DNA from: Myxococcus sp.
GTDB lineage: Bacteria > Myxococcota > Myxococcia > Myxococcales > Myxococcaceae
Reading direction: 5' to 3'
DNA length: 53,152 nt
Assembly: GCA_014879945.1 (NCBI GenBank)
Contig: JACSRE010000207.1
Span: 1-53,152, forward strand
The notes beneath the pieces were generated by a model. It was not told the origin of the DNA. It made no database searches and saw only the letters and a program-made list of their open reading frames with translations. Positions 42,091 to 51,938 of this stretch are shown here, in pieces. Numbering within the stretch: position 1 is the stretch's first letter; each line of letters opens with the position of its first letter. A program made the translations under genes and the position numbers.

Positions 42091-42717
42091 GTGGTGGGGC
42101 TCCTGGTCGGCGCGCTGGTGCTCTCGCAGTTTCCCGTCGACGAGAACCCCGCGGCCTTCGAGCTCATCGAGCGCCGCGACGGCCAGACGCTGTGGGGGCG
42201 CCCGGTGCCGGGCAGCGTGTTTCGGGAGTACCGGGTGCAGACCACCAGCCCCGACGCGACGGCCGACCTCTGCGAGGCCATCTACGAGTGGGCCACCCGC
42301 GACGCCGACGCGCCGGGCGTGGTGTCGAGCCGGGTGCTGGTCGACGGCGCCGACGAGCGCGTCATCTACGCGCAGGTCGCGTTCCCCATCGTGTCGAGGC
42401 GCGACTACGTGTTGGTGGTGACGCGCGAAGCGCTCGAGGGCGGGCGGTGCCGAATCAGGTTTCGCACCACCACGAAGGGGGCGCCGCCCAGGCCCGACGG
42501 CTTCGTGCGCATGGAGAAGCTGTGGGGAGAGTGGCTGATCGACCCCAGGCCCGACGGCGGCGCCGCGCTCACCCACACCCTGTACTCCGACCCGGCGGGC
42601 TCGGTGCCGTCGTTCCTGGTGCACGGCGACCAGCGCGCCGCGACGCTCGCGGCCGTCGCCCGGGGGCTGGCGAAGACGCGCGCGTTCGTCGCGCAGAAGC
42701 GGTCACTGAAGCGCTGA
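42091..42717 (+). CDS. START-domain-like lipid-binding protein
   Basis: The 208-residue product starts at a GTG one base after the Hsp70 stop and has a short hydrophobic N-terminus (MVGLLVGALVLSQF) that could be a signal. Residues 25-200 match the START/SRPBCC pattern: FELIERRDGQTLWGRPVPGS, RVIYAQVAFPIVSRRDYVLV, then LWGEWLIDPRPDGG and a long C-terminal helix (RAATLAAVARGLAKTRAFVA). START domains hold a lipid in a closed cavity. The immediate coupling to a chaperone gene is noteworthy. Its last 15 bp overlap the end of the convergent sigma factor gene. Confidence 0.8.
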   Translation: MVGLLVGALVLSQFPVDENPAAFELIERRDGQTLWGRPVPGSVFREYRVQTTSPDATADLCEAIYEWATRDADAPGVVSSRVLVDGADERVIYAQVAFPIVSRRDYVLVVTREALEGGRCRIRFRTTTKGAPPRPDGFVRMEKLWGEWLIDPRPDGGAALTHTLYSDPAGSVPSFLVHGDQRAATLAAVARGLAKTRAFVAQKRSLKR

Positions 42718-43560
42718 GGGGCCCGCGGCGGTGTCGAGGGCGCGGCGCACCCGGTCCTTCACGCGGAGCTCGATCTGCCGCAGCCGCTCGCGTGAGAGCT
42801 GAAAGCGGTCACCCAGCTGGGCGAGGGTGACGTCGTCATCGTCGGCCAGGAGCCGGTGCTTGAGCACCGCGCGCTCGCGGTCGTCGAAGGCCCTCTCGAG
42901 GCGGCGCACGGTGGTGTGGATGAGGTCGTCGCGCTCGACGCGGCCCAGCGACTCCTCGGGGTCGTCGCACTCGTCTGGCAGCAGGTCGAGGGCGGTGGTC
43001 TCGGAGTCGTCGCCCAGCTTCACGTCGAGCGACCGGTCACCCGCGCCGAGCCTGGCGGTGTGCTGACGAATCACGTCTTCCGAGACGCCGAACTGGCGCG
43101 CGAGCAGGGCGTCGATGCCCTCGTGATCGGGGCCCAGCTGCGCCTCGGCCTTCGCCCGCGCCGAGCGCAGCTTGAAGAAGAACTTCGCGCCCAGCGCGCC
43201 GGTGGCGGCGGTCACGATGCTGTTGGCGCGCATCGCCGCGGCCAACATGTGGGCCCGAATCCAGTACGTCGCGTAGGTCTTGAAGCGCACCCCGCGCAGG
43301 TCGTACTTCTCCACCGCGCGGAGCAGCCCGACGTTGCCCTCGGCGATCAGCTCGTCGCGCGCCACGCCGTACCCCCGCAGGCGCCGCGCCACGTGCAGCA
43401 CCAGCGGCAGGTGCGCCTCGACCAGCGCCTCGGCCGCCTTGCGGTCTCGCTCGAGCACCCACCGCTTCGCCAGCGCGCGCTCTTCGGCTTCCGAGAGCTG
43501 GGGCCGCCGCCCGATCAGCGCGCACCGCTTCTCGTACCAGCTCGACTCGGTCATACCCAT
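42703..43560 (-). CDS. RpoH-like alternative sigma factor
   Basis: The 285-residue product starts at the ATG at 43560, six bases after GAGG (an ATG at 43572 or 43554 is possible). Region 2 has LVEAHLPLVLHVARRLRGYG and DELIAEGNVGLLRAVEKYD, with FKTYATYWIRAHM for -10 recognition. The segment GALGAKFFFKLRSARAKAEA resembles the RpoH box. Region 4 has TLAQLGDRFQLSRERLRQIE for -35 recognition. It therefore belongs to the heat-shock sigma-32 group. Myxobacteria carry several such paralogues, some used in development. The gene beside an Hsp70 homologue supports a stress role. The long open frame reaching upstream to 46371 is not coding. Confidence 0.9.
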   Translation of the reverse strand: MGMTESSWYEKRCALIGRRPQLSEAEERALAKRWVLERDRKAAEALVEAHLPLVLHVARRLRGYGVARDELIAEGNVGLLRAVEKYDLRGVRFKTYATYWIRAHMLAAAMRANSIVTAATGALGAKFFFKLRSARAKAEAQLGPDHEGIDALLARQFGVSEDVIRQHTARLGAGDRSLDVKLGDDSETTALDLLPDECDDPEESLGRVERDDLIHTTVRRLERAFDDRERAVLKHRLLADDDDVTLAQLGDRFQLSRERLRQIELRVKDRVRRALDTAAGPSALQ

Positions 43561-43764
43561 GCGGCACCTCATCGTTGGGGGTGACGGCACCCTACCGATG
43601 GGAGGGAGTGAGAAATAGTCGATTAAAGAGCTCAATTGAGTCCGAAAAATGAATGTCAGTGCCGGCCCCCTCGCGGCAGCGTGGGCCCCGCGCCCGCGGC
43701 CGGGGTTCTCGTGGGAGCGGACGGGCCTCGCCAGTCGAGAACCTGCGATAGAAGGGCCCCCGTC
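43561..43764. promoter_or_regulatory. AT-rich divergent promoter region
   Basis: The 204 bp between the RpoH-like gene and the TPR gene include the most AT-rich stretch of the area (about 43605-43660). It contains a perfect 10-bp palindrome CTCAATTGAG at 43631-43640. Promoters for both genes probably lie here. I cannot assign hexamers with confidence. Confidence 0.4.
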
Positions 43765-44784
43765 GTGAGCGTTCGGCACGTGAAAGAGAAGGCCGCGCAG
43801 TTGATCGCGTCGGGCCACTTCGAGCGGGCCGAGGTGCTCTTGCGCCAGGCGCTCACCCAGTCGCCGCGAGACGTGCAGAGCTGGCTCAAGCACGCCGAGG
43901 TGCTCAAGCGCCTGGGGAGGAACCTCGACGCCATCTCGAACTACCGGCTCGCGGCGAGAATCCTCGATGATGACGGGCATCACCAGCGGGCGGTCGCGGC
44001 GCTCAAGCTCGCGCTGAGCCTGGTGCCCGACGACATCGACCTCATCACCGACATCATCCGCCTCGAGATGCGGGCGCGCCGCACCACCACCGGCGTGCGC
44101 TCGGTGTTTCCGCTCTCGTCGCCCTCGCAGCTGCTCAGCGGGGTGCCGGCCTCGAGCGAGTCGAGCCTGTACGAGGCGTCGTCCGCCTCGATGCTCTCGG
44201 GCGCCGAGGGGCCTGCGCAGCTGGCGCTGCCGATGATCAGCAGCGCCTCGCCCGTGCCCCGCCGGCTCGACACCTGGGTGCCCGAAGGCGACCTCGTCGC
44301 GCCCACGGCCGCGGCCGGGCCGAGCGCGGGCCCGCCCGAAGGCCCCCAGCCCTCGCCTGACGCGCCCGCGCGCGGCTCGGCGCCGACGGCGGAGCGTCAC
44401 TTCAAGAGCGTCGACGCGCGCCTGGAGTGGGCCCGCCCGGGGCTCCCGCTCACGCCCATCGCCATCGAAGACGTCGCGGCCTCCGGCGAGCGCGTCGCGT
44501 TCTTGAGCGCCGACGAGCCAACGCCACGCGCCGCCGCGCCGGCCGACGCCGCCCTCGAGGGCGCGGCGCCGCTGCGGGTCGCCCAGGCGCCCGACGCCCC
44601 GGTGCTCGAGGTCGAGGTCGAGCGCACCGCTTCGTGGCCCCAGGTGCGCCGGCTCTCGGAGCGGCGGGTCGGCGTGCGGGCCGCCCCCGGCGCGCCCTGG
44701 GTCGTCGTCGAGTCGGCCGGGGCGCTCGAGGTCCGCTTCGAGGCCGAGCTCGTCGTCCCCGACGACGCCGAGTGGTTGGAATAG
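43765..44784 (+). CDS. TPR protein with a long disordered Pro/Ala-rich half
   Basis: The product is 339 residues from the GTG at 43765 (VSVRHVKEKAAQLIA). The first 110 residues are three tetratricopeptide-like repeats (GHFERAEVLLRQALTQSPRD, AEVLKRLGRNLDAISNYRLA and HHQRAVAALKLALSLVPDD). The remaining 230 residues are rich in Ala, Pro, Ser and Glu, with no clear fold apart from a short C-terminal strand pair (APWVVVESAGALEVRFEAEL). TPRs mediate protein contacts, and the partner is unknown. The frame extends to 43636, but the extension lacks coding bias. Confidence 0.75.
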   Translation: MSVRHVKEKAAQLIASGHFERAEVLLRQALTQSPRDVQSWLKHAEVLKRLGRNLDAISNYRLAARILDDDGHHQRAVAALKLALSLVPDDIDLITDIIRLEMRARRTTTGVRSVFPLSSPSQLLSGVPASSESSLYEASSASMLSGAEGPAQLALPMISSASPVPRRLDTWVPEGDLVAPTAAAGPSAGPPEGPQPSPDAPARGSAPTAERHFKSVDARLEWARPGLPLTPIAIEDVAASGERVAFLSADEPTPRAAAPADAALEGAAPLRVAQAPDAPVLEVEVERTASWPQVRRLSERRVGVRAAPGAPWVVVESAGALEVRFEAELVVPDDAEWLE

Positions 44785-44817
44785 CGGCCGTCGCGCGGCG
44801 GGTATAAGCCGGCGTGC

Positions 44818-45591
44818 GTGCGGCTGAGGCGCTTCGGGTTGCTGGTGATGGTGGTGGCGACGGCGGCGAGCGCCGAGCGCGCGTTCCCCTACACCTGGAC
44901 CTCGGCCACGCGGGCCGCGAAGACGAGCGACGCCGAGCTGTGGCTGAGCGTGCGCTCCGGCAGGCCCGCCCCCTTCGACCTCCTCGAGCTGCGTGGCTGG
45001 GCCAGCGCCGGCGTCGGCAAGCGCGTGGACCTGCACTTCGGCCTCGAGACCGAGGTGGCGCTGCGCCGCTTCGAGCAGAAGGACCTCGACGGGCGGGTCT
45101 CGGCGCTCGCCCGGTACCGGCTGTTCGACGCCGACGACGTCATCGGCGTGGCCCTGTTGGCGCGGGCTGGCTTCGGCGTCGCCAGCGCGGTGCTCGAGGC
45201 GCGCCTGGTGCTCGACCGCCAGGCCGGCGACGTGCTGGTGGCGCTCAACTCGTCGTTCGAGCGCACCGTGTATTGGGACCGGCGTGACGCCATCGACTCG
45301 AGGCTCGAGCACAGCGTTGCGCTCCGCCTCGCGGTGACCCCCGAGGTCTCTGCCGGCGTCGAGGTGCGCGCGCGCCAGGCCTTCGCCAGCGGCGTGTACC
45401 AGGGCACCGCCATCTACGGCGGCCCCGCGCTGACCGTCTCGACGAAGTGGGCGTGGCTCTCGATCGGCTTCGTCGCGCAGGTGGCCTCGGACAAGGCCGA
45501 GGGCGACCGCGGCGACGGCCAGCGCATCATCTTCCGCGACGACGAGCGCTTCGGGGTGCGGCTGGTGGTCGGCGCGCCGACCGCGAGGTAG
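44818..45591 (+). CDS. Putative outer-membrane beta-barrel protein
   Basis: The 257-residue product has a signal peptide (FGLLVMVVATAASA) starting at a GTG. The mature part consists of alternating-residue strands suggestive of an 8-12-strand barrel, for example RVDLHFGLETEVALRRFEQK, ALLARAGFGVASAVLEARLV and WLSIGFVAQVASD, and ends in FGVRLVVGAP. I cannot match a named family. It is followed after seven bases by the sigma-like gene and may belong to that operon. Confidence 0.65.
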   Translation: MRLRRFGLLVMVVATAASAERAFPYTWTSATRAAKTSDAELWLSVRSGRPAPFDLLELRGWASAGVGKRVDLHFGLETEVALRRFEQKDLDGRVSALARYRLFDADDVIGVALLARAGFGVASAVLEARLVLDRQAGDVLVALNSSFERTVYWDRRDAIDSRLEHSVALRLAVTPEVSAGVEVRARQAFASGVYQGTAIYGGPALTVSTKWAWLSIGFVAQVASDKAEGDRGDGQRIIFRDDERFGVRLVVGAPTAR

Positions 45592-45598
45592 CGACGCC

Positions 45599-46438
45599 AT
45601 GGCCAACTGGTCGCTCCACGCGCTGACGCGCGCCCTCGGAGGCGACAGCCGGCTCGCCGAGCAGTTGCTGCGTCGCCTTCCGGCCGACGACTGGGGCTGC
45701 GACGAGGCGGCGCTCATCGCGACGCTCGAGCGCCAGGGCCTGCCCAGGGAGACGTGGCCGCAGGTGGACGTCGAGGGGCTGGTCTTCGCGCGCGCCTGCC
45801 TCGCCCACCACCCCGGGGCGCTGCAGCGGCTCGACCGTGAGTTGCTGCCTCCGGTGGCGTCGGCGCTCCGGAAACGGGCGTCACCCGACGACGTCGACGA
45901 GGCCATGCAGGTGCTGCGCGCGCGGCTGCTGTTGGCCACGCCGCCCGAGCAGCCCAAGCTGGCGAAGTACTCGGGCCGGGGCGCGCTCGGGGCGTTCCTC
46001 CGCATCGCGGCCGCGAACGTGCTGTCGAACCTCCGCCCCGGCGTGGCGACGGTGCAGGCCGACGAAGAGCTCGCCGCGATGCCTGACGCCGCCGACGTCG
46101 AGGCGCGCCTTTCCCGCGGAGACCAGCAGCGGCGGTTTCGCGAGGTCTTTCGTGACGCCGTGCAGAGCCTCTCGTCGCGGGAGCGCGCGCTGCTGCGGCT
46201 GAGCCTGCTCGACGGGCTCTCCATCGACGAGGTGGCGCCCATGTACGGGGCGCACCGGGCCACCGTGGCGCGGTGGCTGTCGGCGGCGAAGGAGCGGCTG
46301 GCCACCGTCACCCGGGCCAGGCTGGCGGTCGTGCTGCAGCTCCCCGACGACGAGGTGGAGCGCCTGCTCACCTCGGTGCAGCACGGCTTCGAGCTCTCGT
46401 TGAGCCGAGCGCTGCGAGAGACCCAGACGCCCCGCTGA
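45599..46438 (+). CDS. Divergent sigma-70-like factor of the kinase cluster
   Basis: The 279-residue protein has an unusual N-terminal region (1-95) rich in Leu/Arg helices, then a sigma region 2-like segment (ASPDDVDEAMQVLRARLLLA, GRGALGAFLRIAAANVLSNL). A clear region 4 follows: LSSRERALLRLSLLDGLSID, with the recognition helix in VAPMYGAHRATVARWLSAAK. Compared with ECF factors the region-2 core is degenerate, and the protein is longer by a third. Similar sigma-like proteins occur in myxobacteria beside Ser/Thr kinase genes, as here (a zinc-finger kinase starts 1.1 kb downstream). It probably directs or modulates transcription under control of that kinase. Confidence 0.75.
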   Translation: MANWSLHALTRALGGDSRLAEQLLRRLPADDWGCDEAALIATLERQGLPRETWPQVDVEGLVFARACLAHHPGALQRLDRELLPPVASALRKRASPDDVDEAMQVLRARLLLATPPEQPKLAKYSGRGALGAFLRIAAANVLSNLRPGVATVQADEELAAMPDAADVEARLSRGDQQRRFREVFRDAVQSLSSRERALLRLSLLDGLSIDEVAPMYGAHRATVARWLSAAKERLATVTRARLAVVLQLPDDEVERLLTSVQHGFELSLSRALRETQTPR

Positions 46439-46545
46439 AGGCCCCCGAAAATTCCCGTGCGACTCGTGACCGGGTGGGCCTGTCAGGGCTGGTGACGGGC
46501 GACGCCGTACCTCCTCCACTCTTTCCTCGCCCGCGTTGGAGCGTC

Positions 46546-47505
46546 ATGCCTCGCACCTCTTCGTCGTCCCTGGTGGCCTTCGCGGCCGCCGCGGTGTCGT
46601 CCTTCCTCGTCGTCGCGTGCGGTCCCTCTTCGAGTTGCTCGGCGGCGACCTGCGCGGGCTGCTGTGATGCGTCGGGCCTGTGCCAGACGGGGGCCTCGGT
46701 CAGCGCGTGTGGCGAGCGCGGCGGGCAGTGCGCGTCGTGCTCGGTCGGCAGCGCCTGCGCCGCGGGCCGGTGCTCGCTCGGAGGCGTCGGCGGCGGCGGC
46801 TCCAGCACGGGCGGTGGCGGCTCCGGCACGGGCGGTGGCGGCTCAGGCACGGGCGGTGGCGGGTCCAGCACGGGCGGCGGCGCCCCGGGAAGCGCGTGCG
46901 ACCGCGCGACGTCGCTCATCCAGTCGCGGTGTGGAGGCGCCGCGTCCACCGTGCTGGGGCAGTGCAACCAACTGCTCGGCACCGCGTGCGCCAGCCAGGC
47001 CTCGACGTGGTTCGACTGCCTGGTCTCGACGCCGGCGCAGGTGACGTGCGCCGCCGGCGACTTCGGCTCGAGCACCGCCTGCGTGGCGTCGTACCAGGCC
47101 TTGACCGCGTGCTTGAACGGCGGCACCGGAGGCGGGCGCGCCGGCGGTGGCAGCGCAGGTGGTGGCAACGGCCAGCTCAACCAGCCGTGCCCCAACACCT
47201 CGCCCACCTGCGCCGGCACCACGCTCTATTGCGCGCTCAACGTCACGGCCGACGGCACCTCGGACGGCGTGTTCGCTTCGACCGGCGCCTGTCGCAAGAC
47301 GTGCTCGTCCGAAGCCGACTGCGGGGCGCTCGAGGACTGCTGCGCGCTGCGCAACGCTTCGGCCTCGGTGTGCGTGCCGTCGTCGAGCGGCATCTGCAAC
47401 CAGCCGGTGAGCGTGTGCAAAGCCAACGGGCAGAGCTGCGTGAACGACAGCAACTGCTGCTCCAGGCGGTGCAGCGCCCTCTTCAGCCAGTGTGAGGCGC
47501 CGTAA
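46546..47505 (+). CDS. Cys-rich lipoprotein with Gly-Ser-Thr repeat linker
   Basis: The 319-residue product starts at the ATG at 46546 with a clear lipoprotein signal (FLVVAC, Cys25). Three Cys-rich parts (30-75, 115-200 and 210-319) are joined by low-complexity linkers. The first linker is four copies of a GGGGSGT-like heptapeptide (DNA about 46793-46890) and the second is GGGRAGGGSAGGG. The cysteines (about 30) should be disulfide-bonded outside the cell. The layout matches other exported myxobacterial lipoproteins such as the one at 35065. It lies between the sigma-like gene and the zinc-finger kinase and may be co-expressed with them. Confidence 0.8.
   Translation: MPRTSSSSLVAFAAAAVSSFLVVACGPSSSCSAATCAGCCDASGLCQTGASVSACGERGGQCASCSVGSACAAGRCSLGGVGGGGSSTGGGGSGTGGGGSGTGGGGSSTGGGAPGSACDRATSLIQSRCGGAASTVLGQCNQLLGTACASQASTWFDCLVSTPAQVTCAAGDFGSSTACVASYQALTACLNGGTGGGRAGGGSAGGGNGQLNQPCPNTSPTCAGTTLYCALNVTADGTSDGVFASTGACRKTCSSEADCGALEDCCALRNASASVCVPSSSGICNQPVSVCKANGQSCVNDSNCCSRRCSALFSQCEAP
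46793..46890 (+). repeat. Tandem 21-bp repeat (Gly-rich heptapeptide)
   Basis: Four to five imperfect copies of ggcggtggcggctccggca plus two bases, encoding GGGGSGT and GGGGSST. It is an in-frame flexible linker within the Cys-rich lipoprotein gene. Confidence 0.75.
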
Positions 47506-47548
47506 GCCGTTTGACCTCGACGGCCCGGTGGTTCACAGAGCGCCGCGC

Positions 47549-50209
47549 ATGGCCTGCCTCGACGACGACACCCTGTTGGCCCTCGGCTCGGGGCACCTGA
47601 GCGGCCCGTCGCTCGAGCTCGCCGAGGCCCACGTCGATGGTTGCCAGCGGTGTCGGCGCGCGCTCGCGTTGGGGCTCCAGTCATCGGCCGGCGAGGCCCA
47701 GCGCGCGCCGGCGCTGTCGGTCGGCAACACCATCGGCCGCTTCGTGGTGCTCGAGCGCGTCGGCGCGGGCGCGATGGGGCAGGTGTTCGCCGCGTGGGAC
47801 CCGCAGCTCGACCGGAAGGTGGCGCTCAAGCTGCTCAAGAGCGCCGCTTCGTCCGATGAGCACCAGGCCAGGCTCTTGCGCGAGGCCCAGACGCTGGCGC
47901 GGCTGTCTCACCCCAACGTGGTGGCGGTGTTCGATGTCGGCCGGTGGGAAGGGCAACGCTTCATCGCGTTGGAGTTCGTCGGGGGCGGCTCGGTGCGCGA
48001 CTGGCTCGAAGCGCAGAGCCGCGGCGCAGCCGACGTGCTCGACGTCTTCGTGCAGGCCGGGCGCGGGCTGGCGGCGGCGCACCAGGCCGGCGTCGTGCAC
48101 CGTGACTTCAAGCCCGACAACGTGCTGGTGCGCGCCGACGGCCGCGCCCAGGTGACGGACTTCGGGCTCGCGTCCGAGGCCCTGGCGCGCCTCGGCGACG
48201 GGCCCGTGCTGGAGCACGGCGTCTCGTTGACGGGCACCGGCGCGCTGCTGGGGACGCCGGCGTACATGGCCCCGGCGCAGCTCGACGGTGAGCCCGCGAC
48301 GCCCGCGTCCGACCAGTTCGCGTTCTGCGTCGCGCTCTTCGAGGCCCTCACCGGGCAGCGCCCCTGGCGCGGCTCCACCGTCGAGGCCCAGCGGCGCGCG
48401 ATGCGTGACGGGCCGCCGCCGTCGTTCCCCTCGTCGAGCGAGGTGCCCGCCCCGGTTCGCAAGGCGGTGCTGCGAGGGCTCTCGGTGCAGGAGGCGTCGC
48501 GCTGGCCCTCGATGGTGGCGCTGCTCGAGGCGCTCGAGTCAGGCGCCCGCCCGCCGCGCTCATCGAGGGTGGTGGTGGCGGGCCTGGCGCTGGCCGTCAT
48601 CGCCGGGCTGGTGTCGTTCTCTGGCAGGGGCCGGTTGCCGCAGGCCTGTGCGCTCGGCCAGGCGCGCCTGTCGGGGGTGTGGAGCGCGCCGCGCCGGGCG
48701 CAGCTGGAGCAGGCCTTCCTGGCGACGAAGCTGGCCTGGGCGGCCACGGCCGCCGCCGACGTCGCGCGCGTCTTCGACGAGCGCATGGCCGCGTGGCAGC
48801 AGCAGCACCTCGAGGCGTGCCTGGCGTCTGATGACGCCCGCGGCGACGCCGAGCTGTGGCGAGCGCGGCTGGGCTGCCTCGAAGAGCGCGTCGCCGAGCT
48901 CGACGCCACCGTCGGCGTGCTCCTGGCCGGTGGTGCGCCGGCGGTGAACAAGGCCGCGCGCATCGTCGACCGGCTCCCGGCCGCGACGGCGTGCCTCTCG
49001 CCTGGCGTGCTCGAGCGGGTGCCCCTCGACGAGCCCTCGCAGCGGGTCGCGCGCGAGGCGCGGCAGCTCGCGGCGCAGGTGGGCGCGCTCTACGAGGCCG
49101 GCGCCTTCGACGAGGCCGAGCGGCGGTCGAACCCCCGAGACGCCGGCGTGCCGCCCATCGTCCAGTCGGTGGTGCACTACGAGCGTGGCCGGGTGCTGCA
49201 CAAGCTCGGCCGCCTCGACGACGCGAAGGCCACGCTGAAGGCGAGCGCGCTGGCCTCGACGGGGCTGCGTGATGACGGACTCGCCGGAGAGGCCTGGGCC
49301 GAGCTGGGCTTCCTCGTCGGCTTCCTCCAGGTGAAACCCGAAGAGGCGCTCGGCTACGTCGAGCTGGCCCGCGCCCACCTGCCCGCCGCGAAGGACTCAC
49401 GCCTCGAGGAGCACGTCGAGGGGGCCATCGGGAACATCGAGACCCGCCGTGGCCGGCTCGACGTCGCCGAGGCCCACTTCCAGCGCGTGCTGCAGTTGGT
49501 GGAGGCGCGCACCGGCCCCGACAGCTTCTTCACCGCGCGCTCGCTCATCAACCTCGGCAACGCGAAGCTGCGGCGAGGCCACCTCGCCGACGCCCTGCCG
49601 CTGCTGGAGCGCGCGCGGGCCAGCTTCGAGCGCACGCTCGGCGCCCACCACCCCGACACCTTCCAGGCCCTCAATTCGTTGGGGGTCGCGCTGGGTGAGG
49701 CCGGGCGGCTCGACGAGTCGCTGGTCGTCTTCGCCCGGGTGCTCGAGGGGTACCAGGCCACGCTGGGGCCGACGCACCCGAACGTGGGCACGGCCCTCTT
49801 CAACGTCGCCGACGCCCACCTCCGCCTCGGACACTTCGGGTTGGCGCTCCCGTTCTTCGAGCGCGCGCTCGAGGTGTGGACGAAGGGGCTGGGCGTGCAG
49901 TCGGTGCAGCGGGTCGGCGCCCTGGTTGGCATCGCGAAGGCCGCGGCGGGGGGGCGCGACGGCGCGCGCGCGCAGGGCGCCCTCGAAGCGGCGCTGGGCC
50001 TGTGCGACGCGGCCGAGTGCGAGCCCGGAGACGAAGGCGAGGCGGCGTGGCTGTTGGCCGTGGCGTTGAGCGAGGCGAAGCGGCCCTGGGGCGCCGTCGA
50101 GCCCCTCGCCAGGCGCGCGCGCAGGGCCCTCGGCTCGCTCGGAGAAGCCAGGGCGCGCGAGGTGGCGCAGGTCGACCGGTTCCTCGCGTCGAAGGGCGCC
50201 GCGCGCTGA
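47549..50209 (+). CDS. Ser/Thr protein kinase with N-terminal anti-sigma-type zinc finger, TM helix and TPRs
   Basis: The 886-residue product starts at the ATG at 47549. Residues 1-45 form a zf-HC2 zinc finger: Cys3, then HVDGCQRC (residues 28-35, the HxxxCxxC signature of zinc anti-sigma factors). Kinase domain: about 61-320, with VGAGAMGQVF (P-loop), VALKLLK (Lys), HRDFKPDNV (catalytic loop near 184) and DFGLAS. The APE motif reads APA (YMAPAQLDG), so its Glu is lost by one base change. A membrane helix lies near 342-360. The remainder (about 500-880) carries TPRs of the GAxHPDTxxxLxxLGxxLxxxG type. The TPRs lie outside the membrane. It may both hold a sigma factor and phosphorylate it. Confidence 0.9.
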   Translation: MACLDDDTLLALGSGHLSGPSLELAEAHVDGCQRCRRALALGLQSSAGEAQRAPALSVGNTIGRFVVLERVGAGAMGQVFAAWDPQLDRKVALKLLKSAASSDEHQARLLREAQTLARLSHPNVVAVFDVGRWEGQRFIALEFVGGGSVRDWLEAQSRGAADVLDVFVQAGRGLAAAHQAGVVHRDFKPDNVLVRADGRAQVTDFGLASEALARLGDGPVLEHGVSLTGTGALLGTPAYMAPAQLDGEPATPASDQFAFCVALFEALTGQRPWRGSTVEAQRRAMRDGPPPSFPSSSEVPAPVRKAVLRGLSVQEASRWPSMVALLEALESGARPPRSSRVVVAGLALAVIAGLVSFSGRGRLPQACALGQARLSGVWSAPRRAQLEQAFLATKLAWAATAAADVARVFDERMAAWQQQHLEACLASDDARGDAELWRARLGCLEERVAELDATVGVLLAGGAPAVNKAARIVDRLPAATACLSPGVLERVPLDEPSQRVAREARQLAAQVGALYEAGAFDEAERRSNPRDAGVPPIVQSVVHYERGRVLHKLGRLDDAKATLKASALASTGLRDDGLAGEAWAELGFLVGFLQVKPEEALGYVELARAHLPAAKDSRLEEHVEGAIGNIETRRGRLDVAEAHFQRVLQLVEARTGPDSFFTARSLINLGNAKLRRGHLADALPLLERARASFERTLGAHHPDTFQALNSLGVALGEAGRLDESLVVFARVLEGYQATLGPTHPNVGTALFNVADAHLRLGHFGLALPFFERALEVWTKGLGVQSVQRVGALVGIAKAAAGGRDGARAQGALEAALGLCDAAECEPGDEGEAAWLLAVALSEAKRPWGAVEPLARRARRALGSLGEARAREVAQVDRFLASKGAAR

Positions 50210-50255: not shown

Positions 50256-51938
<1,683 letters not shown>

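Follow-up and report, generated by a model that had tools for sequence, protein, structure and literature searches.

Why should a transmembrane Ser/Thr protein kinase carry at its N-terminus a zinc domain resembling those of anti-sigma factors, and is the sigma factor encoded close by its partner? The question is raised by a 53,152-nucleotide stretch of Myxococcus sp. DNA (GenBank assembly GCA_014879945.1, contig JACSRE010000207.1, positions 1 to 53,152 of the forward strand; this whole stretch is the window in what follows), in which genes for a sigma-like protein, a Cys-rich lipoprotein and the kinase follow one another on the plus strand. A first-pass annotation, made from the sequence alone, had proposed that the zinc finger binds the sigma-like factor, and that the kinase releases or modifies it when tetratricopeptide repeats (TPRs) outside the membrane detect a signal. 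Across Myxococcota, the genes for this type of sigma factor and those for zinc-tipped kinases are paired reciprocally and far above chance, the pairing survives changes of gene order, and the partners co-diverge. The reading favoured here, with rather more confidence than doubt, is that of a cognate pair, in which a receptor kinase holds the sigma factor at the membrane via its zinc tip, and kinase activity frees or modifies it.

The sigma factor and the zinc-tipped kinase

The sigma-like product, 279 residues long, scores 179.9 bits with the NCBIfam model TIGR03001 (Sig-70_gmx1, curated name 'RNA polymerase sigma-70 factor, Myxococcales family 1'), above the curated cut-off of 154.6; the same model is matched by 59/59 aligned members of the sigma family. 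TIGR02937 (45.2 bits, above its cut-off, residues 77-235) and Pfam Sigma70_r4_2 match as well, and regions 2 and 4 are found without region 3, as in sigma factors of the extracytoplasmic function (ECF) type. The AlphaFold model is confident (predicted local distance difference test, pLDDT, 87) and a profile search of the PDB returned ECF sigmas at E ~1e-13, which together make the protein a real ECF-type sigma factor rather than a merely sigma-like one. A Foldseek search with the full model gave no strong match, good superposition being limited to region-4 matches (3hug), because the model leaves the relative position of the two sigma domains free. When the window sigma was used as the single query, the search for related loci led to two loci from metagenome-assembled genomes.

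The sigma core is flanked by a helical N-terminal extension (residues 1-57) and a C-terminal one (residues 237-279). Region 2.2 reads DDVDEAMQ and retains the acidic residue E101, this position being acidic in 107/108 gmx1 sigmas, in which the linker acidic residues are retained too. In the C-terminal extension, family-specific serines at positions 255, 262 and 267 (89, 70 and 84% Ser/Thr) are, as judged from the alignment, candidate phosphosites, with S267 alone kept in the window sigma. In one related locus (L165, 6934-7011), the C-terminal 26 residues of the sigma factor are repeated in frame, 81% identical and ~100 bp behind the first copy; the repeat is a duplicated C-terminal helix.

At the tip of the kinase, the zinc motif consists of Cys3 followed by H28-V-D-G-C32-Q-R-C35, an arrangement ([CH]-x24-H-x3-C-x2-C) that arose in 7 of 200,000 shuffles of the first 60 kinase residues. 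Among 95 partner kinases chosen by HxxxCxxC alone, so that the fourth ligand played no part in their selection, a Cys (mostly) or His lies exactly 25 residues N-terminal of the His in 87, and this fixed spacing, being independent of the selection, points to a zinc site with four ligands. The Pfam zf-HC2 model scores the window domain at 17.4 bits, below the cut-off of 22.2 (E 0.005), and matches 69/76 of its relatives at E <= 0.01. Profile matches in the PDB are RslA (7.8e-8), ChrR (8e-6), DdvA (2.7e-5) and RsiW (0.002). AlphaFold predicts a three-helix bundle (helices 6-13, 20-31 and 33-50; pLDDT >90 to residue 40), the structure matches of which are almost all anti-sigma domains (ChrR, Z 8.2; RslA, 6.5; RsiW, 6.3; also DdvA). 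By profile, predicted fold and fourth-ligand spacing, the zinc domain is therefore assigned to the anti-sigma type, in keeping with the first-pass annotation.

As in class I zinc anti-sigma factors, the window domain has Hx3Cx2C with an upstream ligand and the bundle alpha1-alpha3; helix 4, which binds sigma region 2 in that class, is absent from the predicted structure. The model turns to coil from residue 51, and the kinase domain begins near residues 59-64. In three partner kinases (L029, from the genome of the window, contig C398; L110; L164) the zinc ligands are lost while the helices are kept; class I anti-sigma domains likewise include members with and without zinc (PMC7406223). The profile search of the PDB with the zinc domain also matched residues 8-42 of 8rot, chain B, a 991-residue CHAT-domain protein that starts with a tip of the same anti-sigma type; such zinc domains may thus also be fused to proteases.

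The first-pass description of the kinase (Cys3/HxxxCxxC zinc tip, kinase domain, membrane helix, TPRs) holds in full when checked against the sequence and Pfam. The protein has 886 residues, with the glycine loop at 72, VALK at 91, HRD at 184 and DFG at 204; thus the Hanks-type catalytic Lys, HRD and DFG are all present, and the APE motif reads APA (MAPAQ). The TPRs are predicted to lie outside the inner membrane since the single helix comes after the cytoplasmic kinase. The same features recur among 150 partner kinases, of which all have the catalytic Lys, 145 HRD and 149 DFG. Exactly one membrane helix is found C-terminal of the kinase domain, mostly directly behind it, in 122/150, which probably places the variable C-terminal part outside.

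Gene pairing and co-divergence

A sigma site was counted as paired when a zinc-tipped kinase gene lay within 5 kb of it; the sites came from fetched neighbourhoods, which included nine families other than that of the window sigma. In the Myxococcota genomes drawn, the gmx1 family occurs in 75/146, in numbers of up to 14 per genome. At 150 of the 168 gmx1 sigma sites, the nearby kinase has a complete zinc motif, and a further five have a zinc-tip kinase with slightly changed spacing or one ligand lost; three have a zinc-less version of the tip, so that any version of the domain is paired with 158/168, and another three lie at contig ends. In seven complete genomes, a zinc-tip open frame of at least 400 residues lies within 5 kb of 48/50 sigmas and, in the reverse direction, 48/53 zinc-tip frames (E <= 1e-10) lie near a gmx1 sigma, against a chance expectation of ~0.4 pairs. 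The zinc-tip profile was built partly from these seven genomes, with 18 of their sigma sites in neighbourhoods that contributed nothing to it; the sigma sites found later are all paired except one (G078:283243). The conserved pairing across myxobacteria on which the first-pass annotation had staked its proposal is thus there.

Gene order in the complete genomes varies (kinase-sigma 21, sigma-kinase 17, divergent 10), which indicates that the link survives rearrangement; overall, the pairing persists through four gene arrangements. The genome of the window itself has six TIGR03001 sigmas and ~120 kinase domains, and at E <= 1e-8 only six of its kinases are zinc-tipped (C247, C383, C274, C144, C377 and C19). 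Five of these six adjoin five of the six sigmas, and the remaining sigma adjoins a kinase with a zinc-less tip.

Some unusual loci were encountered. The zinc-tip kinase at C19:73728-74777 has no gmx1 sigma match on its contig, and other orphans of this kind are G109:1935883, G109:7272460, G078:7239557 and G112:12178294; their sigma factors may lie elsewhere in the genome. In locus L028 (8248-9567, contig C383 of the same genome as the window), the frame of a zinc-tip kinase on one strand runs into that of a gmx1 sigma on the other, and the kinase domain stops after DFG, which suggests either an inversion made in assembly or a gene that is broken. A single frame of 314 residues in locus L015 (C58:71563-72069, same genome) matches both ECF sigma and zf-HC2, and a similar frame is found in L150 (1410-2102); the L015 frame probably joins sigma and anti-sigma factor of a different ECF group.

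Partners also diverge together, even among the paralogues within a single genome. Over 95 pairs, the sigma distance matrix correlates with that of the zinc domain at r 0.66 (0.26, s.d. 0.03, when partners are shuffled within genomes) and with that of the kinase domain at r 0.65 (shuffled 0.31, s.d. 0.03), and neither value was reached by any of 1000 within-genome shuffles. The divergence of the 46-residue zinc tip correlates more closely with that of the sigma factor than with that of the adjoining kinase domain (difference 0.12, bootstrap 0.07-0.18), and kinase-domain divergence still follows the sigma factor once the zinc domain is controlled for (partial r 0.47). Co-divergence, together with this closer tracking by the tip, suggests contact and falls short of proof. 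Zinc-domain residues 26 and 29 seemed to cluster with sigma region 4, a post hoc signal that did not exceed shuffles and was discarded.

Features of the locus and neighbouring genes

The sigma, lipoprotein and kinase genes (table 1) are open frames separated by gaps of 107 and 43 bp, with starts and order as first described.

Table 1. Features assigned at and around the sigma/kinase locus (window coordinates).
Feature	Coordinates	Strand	Remarks
Predicted exported protein	44818..45591	+	7 bp upstream of sigma gene; possible operon member
ECF-type sigma, TIGR03001 (Sig-70_gmx1)	45599..46438	+	NCBIfam, AlphaFold model, PDB profile match, E101 kept
Cys-rich, Gly-linker lipoprotein	46546..47505	+	between sigma and kinase genes; accessory
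Transmembrane Ser/Thr kinase	47549..50209	+	N-terminal anti-sigma-type zinc domain, C-terminal TPR domain
Anti-sigma-type zinc domain	47549..47698	+	residues 1-50; three helices; ligands Cys3, His28, Cys32, Cys35
Protein kinase domain	47744..48409	+	Pfam PF00069; residues 66-287; catalytic motifs intact
Single transmembrane helix	48569..48619	+	residues 341-357; hydropathy maximum 2.3
TPR region	49169..49996	+	residues ~541-816; predicted outside inner membrane; Pfam TPR_12, TPR_10

The Cys-rich protein carries the lipobox-like sequence VVAC; its C-terminal, Cys-rich part has homologues in L165, L118 and L160 only, in each case directly before the kinase. A role as a general part of the system is ruled out by this confinement to four related loci, the window included, and the lipoprotein is an accessory confined to this lineage that may belong to the sensor. 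The gene for the predicted exported protein is kept in position in two close relatives. On the minus strand, a second Ser/Thr kinase gene without a zinc tip (50256-51938) lies tail-to-tail with that of the zinc-tipped kinase and is kept at that place in L165 (82% identical). Also on the minus strand, ~2 kb from the locus, a longer sigma-70-type factor of RpoH/RpoD-like type (42703-43554), beginning MTESSWYEKRCALIGRR, is likely the real gene within the long frame 42703-46371.

Proposed control of the sigma factor

Before any signal arrives, the zinc domain with its three helices would keep the sigma factor next to the kinase domain at the membrane, most likely through region 4. A signal reaching the outer TPR domain, in the lineage of the window with the help of the Cys-rich lipoprotein, would then activate the kinase, which may phosphorylate either the bound sigma factor or its own tip, so that the sigma factor is freed or switched on. 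Intact catalytic motifs and a single membrane helix fit the signal-dependent release or modification that the first-pass annotation had proposed. In known sigma/anti-sigma complexes, helix 1 sits on region 4 and helix 4 on region 2 (PMC7406223); with helix 4 missing and the kinase domain starting at its place, it may be the kinase domain that covers region 2 or the linker. The residue corresponding to sigmaE-R178, a contact residue in region 4, is basic in the gmx1 family (K231 in the window sigma; Arg in 114/150). A bolder extension, which we put forward only tentatively, is that of a large myxobacterial class of one-protein sensor/anti-sigma/kinase molecules, in which the kinase domain replaces helix 4 and covers region 2 of the sigma factor held by the tip, activation directly ejecting or activating it, with up to 14 insulated pairs per genome.

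Several observations weigh against the cognate-pair reading. From helix 3 to the kinase domain there are just ~8-14 unstructured residues, whereas a fourth helix covers sigma region 2 in canonical class I domains (PMC7406223); without it, the window domain may bind half the sigma factor only, or dock rather than inhibit. Foldseek E-values for the zinc domain are weak (0.9-1.6), because the domain is small. Mutual information between sigma factor and zinc domain (150 pairs, effective number of sequences ~90) has a top-20 mean of 0.1239, not clearly above the 0.1189 +- 0.0033 of shuffles, and the published contact pair RseA-D11/sigmaE-R178 gives no mutual-information signal in gmx1 pairs. Finally, gmx1 sigmas are missing from the vicinity of a few zinc-tipped kinases.

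These points feed different alternatives. The absence of helix 4, which weakens an inhibitory role, suits a docking function, whereby the zinc domain would present to the kinase a sigma factor that is inactive until phosphorylated, as for the ECF43 pairs EcfP/PknT and EcfK/PknS, which provide a precedent (PMC13147305, PMC8103513). Conserved gene pairs and intact kinases would be expected from docking too, and the C-terminal serines offer possible phosphosites, although only one of them is present in the window sigma. We regard docking as rather unlikely, since the gmx1 sigmas, with the acidic residue of region 2.2 and the linker acidics retained, do not look built inactive, and the near-invariance of the former makes an ECF43-type activation improbable. 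The few orphan kinases may instead recall joint inheritance of two signalling genes whose products make no contact, the zinc domain serving kinase dimerization or another partner; indeed, zf-HC2 domains are also known in proteins other than anti-sigma factors. This would be hard to reconcile with reciprocal pairing far above chance through four gene arrangements, with a zinc domain that follows the sigma factor more closely than its own kinase domain, and with structure matches that are almost only anti-sigma domains, and it is considered very improbable.

The sigma factor could also be sequestered constitutively and released without being phosphorylated, for instance upon loss of zinc or a redox change at the tip, or upon proteolysis, while the kinase has other targets. 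The zinc ligands do match those of the redox-type anti-sigma factors ChrR and RslA, and zinc can act as the sensor in soluble anti-sigma factors (PMC7406223, PMC8999054); yet the ligands are lost in some pairs, hence zinc is not a general sensor, the catalytic residues are kept in nearly all of the 150 partners, and kinase-domain divergence tracks the sigma factor in its own right, all of which leave this explanation with a small probability. If, instead, the cognate-pair reading is correct, signal sensing, restraint and phosphorylation may all reside in one protein, two main modes of bacterial signalling would be joined in one receptor, and a role would be found for sets of kinases and sigma factors in genomes rich in both, with up to 14 naturally insulated sigma/receptor pairs per genome.

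A literature search found no paper on TIGR03001, under its accession or its family name, or on a fusion of an anti-sigma domain with a kinase; the ECF classification and EcfP papers were outside its scope, and a prior report is possible. The closest known systems are the ECF43 pairs (EcfP-PknT of Vibrio parahaemolyticus and EcfK-PknS of Xanthomonas citri), in which an ECF sigma gene also lies beside that of a transmembrane Ser/Thr kinase taken to control the sigma factor. Among kinase-adjacent ECF groups, only ECF43 has a tested mechanism (PMC8999054): its sigmas are inactive until phosphorylation of a Thr that replaces the acidic motif of region 2.2 (PMC8103513, PMC13147305). In the window sigma, this motif has not given way to a neutral one with a phosphorylatable Thr/Ser; gmx1 sigmas differ in keeping the acidic residue and in carrying N- and C-terminal extensions, and their partner kinases in being zinc-tipped, no such tip for ECF43 kinases being described in PMC8103513, PMC13147305 or PMC8999054. 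Kinase-linked by gene context are also ECF59, ECF61, ECF62, ECF217 and ECF283, with listed representatives in Planctomycetes and Actinobacteria (PMC8999054); a review describes the kinase-linked groups other than ECF43 as retaining an acidic DAED-like motif and as unexplained in mechanism (PMC8999054). For such acidic-motif groups, the cognate-pair reading, if true, would provide a testable answer, the missing anti-sigma factor being, in myxobacteria, part of the kinase itself. With the class I zinc anti-sigma factors (ChrR, RslA, RsiW, RsrA), the window domain shares the three-helix fold, the C/H-x24-H-x3-C-x2-C ligands and a gene beside that of an ECF sigma; it differs from them in having no fourth helix for binding sigma region 2 and in being fused to a Ser/Thr kinase rather than to a cupin or a plain membrane anchor.

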